A stretch of 64,000 bases of DNA from Chloroflexota bacterium. Lineage in GTDB: Bacteria; Chloroflexota; Dormibacteria; Dormibacterales; Dormibacteraceae. Shown here piece by piece: positions 1-60,212 of the stretch (the stretch's first letter is position 1; each line of letters begins with the position of its first letter). Below the pieces are notes generated by a model, which was not told the DNA's origin, made no database searches, and saw only the letters and a list, made by a program, of their open reading frames with translations. Made by a program: the position numbers and the translations under genes. The stretch is from contig VBHJ01000004.1 of assembly GCA_005887685.1 (NCBI GenBank), positions 1 to 64,000 on the forward strand, in the 5' to 3' direction.

Positions 1-848
<848 letters not shown>

Positions 849-852
<4 letters not shown>

Positions 853-1121
853 GGCGCGGGGGAAGCAGGCCTCCCCCGCGCAACCCCCTCCGTTGCAAAG
901 GATGTTTGACGGCGTTTGGAAGCTCAGATGCAGGGGACGGCCGGAGTAAATCCGGCCTACAGCCCCACTTCGTCTACTGCGAACTAAGGCGCGGGGGAAG
1001 CAGGCCTCCCCCGCGGAACCCCCTCCGTTGCAAACGATGTTTGACGGCGTTTGGAAGCTCAGATGCAGGGGACGGCCGGAGTAAATCCGGCCTACAGCCC
1101 CACTTCGTCTACTGCGAACTA
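849..1121. repeat. Tandem direct repeat, about 135-bp unit x2 (849-983 / 984-1121), each with two hairpins
   Basis: ctaaggcgcgggggaagcaggcctcccccgc...ggacggccggagtaaatccggcctacagccccacttcgtctactgcgaa repeated at offset 135 with only a few mismatches. Confidence 0.95.
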
Positions 1122-1122
1122 C

Positions 1123-1164
1123 GTAGAACGGCCCCCGCGCAAGCACGGGAACATACCTCTCTAG
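1123..1164 (+). pseudogene. Second, diverged copy of the carboxylase C-terminal 13 codons (VERPPRKHGNIPL*)
   Basis: gta gaa cgg ccc ccg cgc aag cac ggg aac ata cct ctc tag translates identically to 811-852 (gtc gag cgc cct cca cgc aag cac ggc aac atc cct ctc taa). Confidence 0.85.
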
Positions 1165-3728: not shown

Positions 3729-3745
3729 GACGAGGTGGGGCCCTA

Positions 3746-3846
3746 GGCCGGATTTATTCCGGCCGTCACCCAGCGTCTATTTCCTATACACACCAGACAC
3801 CGCAGTGCACGGAGGGGGTTCCGCGGGGGAGGCCTGCCTCACCCGC
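3746..3846 (-). repeat. Bipartite two-hairpin intergenic element (reverse orientation)
   Basis: ggccggatttattccggcc (3746-3764), about 41-nt spacer, acggagggggttccgcgggggaggcctgcctcacccgc (to 3846); reverse complement matches the 849-1121 repeat at both hairpins. Confidence 0.8.
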
Positions 3847-3851
3847 GCGTT

Positions 3852-4889
3852 CTATGGGGTCAGGACGATCTTCGTCGCCTCGCGGGCATCGAACATCCGG
3901 TAGGCCTCTTCGGCGTCGTCGAGCTTCATGCGGTGGCTGATGATCCTGTCCGGCGCCAGCCGGCCGGCCGCAATCAGGTCCAGCAGCGGCCGCATGTACA
4001 GCTGGACGTTGCACCAGCCGGCGCGAAAGGTCAGCGACTTGAGCCACATGCGCATGTAGGGAAACTCGCCTAGCACCGCACTCGGCACGCCCACCATCGA
4101 GACCGTACCCCCGCCGCGCACGACGTGAATCGCGGTGTCCACAGCCGGCAGGAGGCCGACGCACTCGATGCTGGAGTCGGCCCCGATCCCACCTGTGGCG
4201 TGCTCGATCGCCTGCACCGGATGGACCTCTCTCGAATTGATCGGGATGCCGCCGAGCTCCTGGGCCACCTCGAGGCGGGAGTCGACCATGTCGATCACAA
4301 AAGTTCGCGCCGGCCCGAACAGCTGCGCGCACATCGTCGCCATCAGGCCCACCGGCCCGGCCCCGATGACGGCCGTCACGTCGCCGGGCTTGATCTCCGC
4401 CCGCTCGGCGCCAAAAAAACCGGTGGCCAGGATGTCCCCCACGAAGATGGCCTGCTCGTCGGTCATCCCGGCGGGAATTTCCTCCATCGTGTGGTCGGCG
4501 TTGGGCACCACGACGTACTCGGCCTGTCCGCCGCCGAGACCGCCGAAGTACTCACCGTGGCCGAACGTGCCCTTGTCGACGCACTGGTTGAACCAACCTT
4601 TGCGGCAAAGCGCGCAGTGGCCGCACGAAGTGAAGAAGCTCGAGACCACGCGGTCGCCGGCCTTGAAGCGTTTGACCTCGCCGCCCACCGCTTCGACCAC
4701 GCCCACGAACTCGTGGCCCAGCACAGCGCCTTGATTCATCGGTGTATGGCCGTGGAGGATGTGAAGGTCCGAGCCGCAGACAGCCCCAAGCGTCACTTTG
4801 ACCAGCGCGTCGCCTGAGCCCTTGATGCCGGGTTTGGGAACGTCTTCGACCTTGACGTCGCCCTCGCCCCGAAAAGTCAGCGCCTTCAT
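3852..4889 (-). CDS. Zinc-dependent alcohol dehydrogenase (MDR family)
   Basis: MKALTFRGEGDVKVEDVPKPGI...GAVCGSDLHILHG...GHEFVGVVEAVGGEV...CGHCALCRKG. Confidence 0.9.
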   Translation of the reverse strand: MKALTFRGEGDVKVEDVPKPGIKGSGDALVKVTLGAVCGSDLHILHGHTPMNQGAVLGHEFVGVVEAVGGEVKRFKAGDRVVSSFFTSCGHCALCRKGWFNQCVDKGTFGHGEYFGGLGGGQAEYVVVPNADHTMEEIPAGMTDEQAIFVGDILATGFFGAERAEIKPGDVTAVIGAGPVGLMATMCAQLFGPARTFVIDMVDSRLEVAQELGGIPINSREVHPVQAIEHATGGIGADSSIECVGLLPAVDTAIHVVRGGGTVSMVGVPSAVLGEFPYMRMWLKSLTFRAGWCNVQLYMRPLLDLIAAGRLAPDRIISHRMKLDDAEEAYRMFDAREATKIVLTP

Positions 4890-23849: not shown

Positions 23850-23920
23850 GAGTCACTCCTATGGGGGCCGGAAGTTGCCATAGGTTAACGCGGCAAACTT
23901 GGAGTTGGTTCTATCAGAGC

Positions 23921-23947
23921 GCGGGGGAGGACAGACGTCCTCCCCGC
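23921..23947 (+). repeat. Partial copy of the bipartite element (GC hairpin half)
   Basis: agagc|gcgggggaggacagacgtcctccccgc|gaaaccccatccctcc resembles gcgggggaagcaggcctcccccgcggaaccccctccg. Confidence 0.5.
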
Positions 23948-24049
23948 GAAACCCCATCCCTCCCCAGGCGCGCCGGGAGGCGCCTGGTAAGCAAGGCCCC
24001 ACTCCCGTCCACCAGCCAGGGTGTCCGTGCGGGATATACTCGGCCCGAT

Positions 24050-59878: not shown

Positions 59879-59882
59879 GAGC

Positions 59883-59987
59883 GCGGAAGAGGACTCCGTC
59901 CCCTTCCGCGGACCATCCCCTCTGCCGGCCACGATTGGGAGGCGCTTGGCCGGGAATCGCGAGGTGACGGCCGGAATGAATCCGGCC
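59883..59987 (+). repeat. Bipartite two-hairpin intergenic element
   Basis: gcggaagaggactccgtccccttccgc (59883-59909), about 42-nt spacer, ggccggaatgaatccggcc (59969-59987). Confidence 0.8.
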
Positions 59988-60047
59988 TTATAGCCACGCG
60001 CTTGTCTTACCGAACTGACCCCAGGAGTCGTAGGTGAAAATGGACAC

Positions 60048-60212
60048 ATGAGGGGGAGTCGACGAGTGCGCCCAGCGCCAGGTAGCTTCCTTCGCAACTT
60101 CCTTGCCGGGTCGTATGGCCCGCTCGAGCGGCTGCGGGTGATGTCGGCCAACGTGCAGAGAAAGCGCGGCGGAAAGGGGTGCTGCGGGAACTACGGGGAG
60201 CCGGGTTGTTGA
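60048..60212 (+). CDS. Small Cys-rich protein, 54 aa, C-terminus CCGNYGEPGC
   Basis: MRGSRRVRPAPGSFLRNFLAGSYGPLERLRVMSANVQRKRGGKGCCGNYGEPGC*; SD-like AGGTGA upstream; below the length cut-off of the supplied ORF track. Confidence 0.6.
   Translation: MRGSRRVRPAPGSFLRNFLAGSYGPLERLRVMSANVQRKRGGKGCCGNYGEPGC

Follow-up and report, generated by a model that had tools for sequence, protein, structure and literature searches.

Among dispersed bacterial repeats, REP/BIME elements of the GTAG and CGTC superfamilies are short palindromes, in tandem or in pairs, that sit close to gene 3′ ends in gaps whose genes converge or run the same way, as in Pseudomonas entomophila and Sphingomonas wittichii, and their termini can supply TAG stops (PMC3733652). 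The YPAL/RU-2 repeat of Yersinia (168 bp) is gene-less, intergenic and palindromic, with internal rather than terminal inverted repeats, no TA ends, and both empty and filled sites; its target duplications vary from 3 to 26 bp and its targets lie at or near dyad symmetries (PMC2229807). Longer direct repeats, of 8–514 bp and likewise variable, are reported to flank the insertion sequences IS1549 and IS1634, which measure 1.5–2 kb, carry a transposase gene and inverted repeats, and for which no mechanism has been proposed (PMC2266710).

Here we describe a repeat of the Dormibacteria (Candidatus Dormiibacterota), soil bacteria, that is dispersed, has inserted at formerly empty sites, is flanked by duplications in a subset of copies and lies close to stop codons. 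We conclude that it is probably a non-autonomous mobile DNA repeat belonging to one Dormibacteria family, and found no description of it in the literature searched, which was of limited extent. The closest precedents appear to be REP/BIME for position and YPAL/RU-2 for variable duplications. Compared with REP/BIME, the unit is long (120 bp), has two hairpins of unrelated sequence, bears the GTAG motif in a third of copies and lacks an accompanying RAYT; its long flanking duplications have no counterpart described for REPs in the excerpted parts of PMC3733652. It shares with YPAL/RU-2 the gene-less, intergenic and palindromic character, the internal rather than terminal inverted repeats, the lack of TA ends, duplications of variable length and the occurrence of empty and filled sites, a likeness of features between hosts in different phyla; it differs in its longer duplications (15–108 bp), in the fixed order of two distinct hairpins and in a strong preference for stop codons where YPAL favours dyad symmetries. 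The transposase gene and inverted repeats of IS1549/IS1634 are both lacking. ERIC/RU-1 (127 bp) and BOX are similar in size, dispersal, modular hairpins and tandem forms (PMC2229807 and general knowledge). The 7-bp inverted repeats and TA ends of ERIC are absent from the Dormibacteria repeat.

The window, the whole 64-kb stretch of DNA analysed, is part of contig C137 of a 3.05-Mb draft host genome (G000) in 264 contigs. Each repeat unit, about 120 nt long, is gene-less and consists of hairpin A (GCGCGGGGGAGGCAGGCCTCCCCCGCG) near the 5′ end, the segment CCCCCTCC, a spacer, hairpin B (GACGGCCGGAnTnAATCCGGCC) near the 3′ end and a tail (TACAGCTCCACTTCGTC), with the start of A and the B stem separated by 86.8 ± 6.7 nt (112 copies). 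The original prediction had named several places in the window with this two-hairpin architecture, and it is present at every one (Table 1), including a partial copy now recognised as a longer degenerate relic. All four full units that had been predicted exist. Two of them are tandem duplicates (135 bp) whose spacers are nearly identical, which reduces the count in the window to three independent insertions, besides the relic. Spacers had been described as unrelated, which does not stand, since a GGCGYYTGG core is common to them across the family. All full copies lie in convergent gaps, as predicted. The hairpin-B pattern matches seven times in the window against 0.07 expected from shuffles, a roughly 100-fold excess; a gapped pattern search for hairpin A returned mostly noise. 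Tandem arrays make up 18 of 152 blocks of copies. Between copy d and its original flank lie about 50 extra bases (60007–60055) with CTGACCCCAGGAGTCGTAGGTGAAAATGGACACATGA, resembling an insertion-sequence end.

Table 1 Copies of the repeat and associated duplications in the 64-kb window
Feature	Position	Strand	Description
Left copy of 42-bp direct repeat	811–852	+	3′ end of carboxyltransferase gene (pccB-like, PF01039) including stop codon; 83% identical to 1122–1163
Type-1 element, unit a	854–974	+	Hairpin A 854–880, CCCCCTCC, spacer, hairpin B 936–957, tail ..CCCCACTTCGTC; 122.3 bits, E 6e-21
Type-1 element, unit b	989–1109	+	Tandem copy of unit a, period 135 bp; hairpin B 1071–1092; 124.4 bits, E 2e-21
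Right copy of 42-bp direct repeat	1122–1163	+	Truncated duplicate of carboxyltransferase gene end
Type-1 element, copy c	3729–3848	−	Between the stops of two genes, one YgjP-like (+, ends 3728) and one for a zinc alcohol dehydrogenase (−, stop at 3852); 117.1 bits
Degenerate relic	23919–24009	+	Retains hairpin A and the tail but not the stem of hairpin B; 39.7 bits, E 1.4e-4
Type-1 element, copy d	59881–60006	+	2 nt after TGA of gene ending 59878; hairpin B 59966–59987; 86.6 bits

A covariance model (R1) built from ten host copies finds 24 matches in the host genome at E ≤ 1 and 12 at E ≤ 1e-3, which bears out the expectation of further genomic copies. Among draft assemblies, to which all comparisons refer, R1 copies occur in 37 of 42 genomes of the host family (host included), with 1–30 per genome, and in none of 59 genomes from other families of the class; owing to the stricter filters of this multi-genome search, the copy counts are lower bounds. 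Scanning 84,980 named species genomes for the exact hairpin-B core gave 104 stretches and, among the matches listed (80 of the 104), all belong to Dormiibacterota or ‘Chloroflexi bacterium’ MAGs except one on a Gemmatimonadetes-labelled contig (L189, 29–160), which is likely to be mis-binned. The same core is present 13, 23 and 31 times in three good family genomes. The viral contigs searched contain no element and thus provide no phage link. The spread of the repeat is confined to one family, and part of its copy number is vertical inheritance, as some occupied sites are common to several genomes and element identity there is above random (0.81–0.93).

Hairpin B also occurs in longer elements of 127–236 nt that begin with other, perfect hairpins (ATGAGAAGGAACC..GGTTCCTTCTCAT and variants), for example at L149, L190, L200, L136, L142, L124 and L196 and, in the host, at G000:C145:2650–2790. 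Some of these (type 2) combine a UUCG-loop hairpin with a GGATnGGAYTTACTGAWT motif, several stand directly after stop codons and two are flanked by repeats (32 and 36 bp); the longer elements seem to form a second family. With hairpin B constant and the 5′ hairpins exchanged, B is most likely the common recognition part. At L201 (about 650–1130) a third type is arrayed in tandem with a period of 114 bp, each unit comprising a CAAGAGGGGGGCAGGCCCCCCTCTTCC hairpin, a spacer and hairpin B.

The stems are maintained by compensatory change, as the original prediction had suggested from a few differences. Pairing holds for 96.4% of stem cells across 75 further copies, compared with 40–60% in slid controls, and double-sided changes affect 11 of the 18 pairs of stems A and B (75 cells versus 10.9 ± 2.8 in shuffles). 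G-U pairs account for just 5 of 1,316 stem cells, and for 9 of 1,306 in another set, and a T-C mismatch recurs at one position of stem A, which is unpaired in 29 of the 75 copies; a separate count gave 30 T-C cells. We read these stems as a palindrome that may be kept as DNA and is imperfect in a strand-specific manner, like hairpins recognised by single-strand nucleases. Beyond the window, at G000:C137:106858–106981, hairpin B precedes hairpin A, and a GGCC-to-GCCC change is compensated in stem B.

Conserved pairing could also mark a structured RNA, a reading also offered in the original prediction: a cis-acting 3′-UTR element or small RNA under selection, in which CCCCCTCC would serve as an anti-Shine–Dalgarno arm. 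In its favour, genera share two or three hairpins that differ by compensatory changes, CCCCCTCC is unpaired, type 2 has UUCG loops and the place after stop codons is conserved. The near absence of G-U pairs from covarying stems is, however, unusual for RNA and tends to favour a DNA hairpin. Moreover, both orientations relative to genes are common (among single copies with a stop on one side, 29 have it on the A side only and 43 on the B side only), Rfam gave no match at gathering in the window and, at E ≤ 1, only a tRNA in eight type-1 and type-2 loci, and the empty sites and flanking duplications described below show insertion. These weaken the RNA reading, which we regard as unlikely.

Empty and filled orthologous sites were found at all three window loci. 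At the site of copy d, relatives (G007, G008, G012, G002 and others) read TACGAATGA followed by unrelated flank with no element, and G011 has two units with TACGAATGA repeated after each. The site of copy c is empty in G006 and G009, where the two convergent genes overlap in CTAG with nothing between them. The carboxyltransferase gene end is filled in six genomes, including the host, and empty in eight members of the genus; the host array is bounded by the 42-bp duplicate of that gene end, which in G007 is single-copy and without an element.

Such duplications extend beyond the window. When the flanks of 147 blocks were compared, 30 scored above a level that mismatched flank pairs attain in 2.3% of cases, and 23 have direct repeats of 15–108 bp adjacent to the element edges, usually a duplicated gene end and mostly that of the gene on the B side. 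In these 23 blocks the repeats, which are 74–100% identical, lie 0–7 nt before hairpin A (most often 2) and 0–25 nt after the tail; the boundary rule is not exact, as the native stop is present in only one copy of some duplications. For one gene family, the duplication at the same gene end is 95 bp in one genome (L170) and 21 bp in another (L145), so that this end has been hit more than once. At most copies (about 84%) a flanking repeat is not recognisable, and this has to be explained by original duplications that were short or by decay. The long flanking repeats, together with the stop-codon positioning considered below, are the most informative features of the family and go beyond what had been predicted.

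Direct repeats of this kind raise the possibility of a MITE derived from a DDE insertion sequence of the IS1549/IS1634 kind. The 8–514-bp repeats of those elements (PMC2266710) match the lengths seen here, and a target-site duplication, as expected of a MITE, is present, albeit of atypically variable length. The repeat has no terminal inverted repeats (end-to-end alignment score 10.2, compared with 10.1 for shuffled sequences) and is thus not a classical MITE, nor was a transposase gene seen within the same ends in the loci examined. We consider this derivation improbable.

Gene models from a simple codon-score caller place 134 of 135 blocks between genes, in 50 convergent, 75 co-directional and 9 divergent gaps, and the edges of the blocks adjoin stop codons. 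There are 53 cases in which a stop falls −1 to 7 nt from hairpin A and 67 in which one falls −2 to 14 nt from the tail; a stop occurs within 8 nt on the A side or 14 nt on the B side for 90 of 118 single copies, compared with 8.4% of random intergenic positions. Taken together, TAA and TAG account for 79% and 76% of adjacent stops in the two sets compared, versus 53% of stops elsewhere (p about 2e-4 for each set). Most of this positioning is explained, although not rigorously, if the element prefers TA-containing stops as targets and gene-breaking insertions are lost. A function needed directly after stop codons would give similar positioning, and selection for it could be an alternative.

Gene 3′ ends are also where REPs reside, and hairpins A and B might each be a REP hairpin, paired in a single BIME that a RAYT (Y1 HUH transposase) mobilises. 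The tandem and paired arrangement of the units is in keeping with this, and on its minus strand hairpin B reads GTAG-GCCGGA..TCCGGC in a third of copies. The tag (CTAC, GTAG on the other strand) is present in 40 of 123 copies (33%) and so is not conserved, whereas an unpaired GTAG beside the stem characterises over 90% of members of most GTAG-REP families; A and B are, in addition, unrelated in sequence. The search for an associated RAYT that the original prediction had proposed found PF01797 (Y1_Tnp) in one of 42 family genomes, G027 (11 matches), itself without an element, and in none of the element-bearing genomes tested. Given the lack of Y1/RAYT and the GTAG frequency, the repeat falls outside the GTAG-REP definition. 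Target duplications are not known from IS200/IS605-type chemistry. Mobilisation by a RAYT is already largely refuted and, in our judgement, highly unlikely. What survives of the REP/BIME- or MITE-like assignment is the kind of element, a dispersed, tandem-prone, palindromic and gene-less repeat that inserts; its specific readings fail for want of a RAYT, a prevalent GTAG and terminal inverted repeats.

A role as bidirectional intrinsic terminators would account for GC-rich hairpins and for the convergent gaps in 50 of 134 complete contexts. Neither side has the U-tract, however: runs of at least five T in 8 nt follow hairpin A on the minus strand in only 9% of copies and the tail on the plus strand in 14%, and terminators seem a very doubtful explanation. 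A SINE-like retroposon would be transcribed in the direction B to A and its RNA reverse-transcribed at target nicks. This would yield variable target duplications along with a brief A-rich edge like the one at −3 to −1 (45–51% A, also where no stop is nearby), but such a retroposon is extremely unlikely, as there is no long poly-A or poly-T tail and RVT_1 (PF00078 model only) is found in just 9 of 42 family genomes, in neither of the element-rich G022 and G026 and with no tie to copy number.

Three further candidates were dropped: hairpin A with a minus-strand T-run as an RNA 3′ end (the A-rich edge is only about 3 nt), diversity-generating template and variable repeats (no consistent reverse transcriptase, and the few differences inspected are not adenine-only), and attC sites of integrons (no RYYYAAC/GTTRRRY ends, and two separate hairpins).

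For the mobile DNA repeat that we favour, we propose that an enzyme acting in trans would recognise the end hairpins A and B as single-stranded or extruded DNA and join the element to DNA nicked within or next to a stop codon, preferably TAA or TAG. A further nick, at differing distances inside the gene end, might then let repair duplicate the stretch between the two nicks. Because the duplication would restore the gene end, insertion could be harmless, and purifying selection against gene-breaking copies would sharpen the position further. The inserted hairpins are probably transcribed within 3′ ends, and any effects on termination, mRNA stability or translation would be secondary and putative. 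No candidate for the mobilising enzyme was found, and several non-REP palindromic repeats likewise have no known one. It is conceivable, if tentative, that the family represents a new transposition route, in which a host or mobile enzyme inserts hairpin-ended gene-less DNA at stops, duplicating 15–108 bp of the gene end and hence being automatically harmless, with different cargo middles and one recognition hairpin (B).

Target duplications of variable length lack a mechanistic model, as stated for IS1549/IS1634 (PMC2266710), and the Dormibacteria family supplies many insertions with matched empty sites. The tight stop-codon position and near-complete genomes without RAYT or RVT_1 narrow the search for the enzyme. 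Annotators gain a model of a repeat that can reach about 30 type-1 copies in a Dormibacteria genome; they are also warned against taking the gene ends duplicated next to it for real genes.

Two observations concern the genes next to the window copies. Within the carboxyltransferase gene, a perfect 110-bp tandem duplication at 419–639 (419–528 again at 529–638) breaks the reading frame; it is missing from genus relatives and is a recent mutation or an assembly artefact. Junctions orthologous to 3729–3851 (in G007, G008, G003 and G010) and to the carboxyltransferase and copy-d sites (in G009, G015 and G006) contain other short palindromes (ATTCCGCACGTCTGGCGCCGGCCGTGCGGAAT; CGCGAGCGCCGGCAGTCGCG; ATAGTCGCGACTAT), which marks these gaps as hot spots where several unrelated kinds of palindromic repeat occur.
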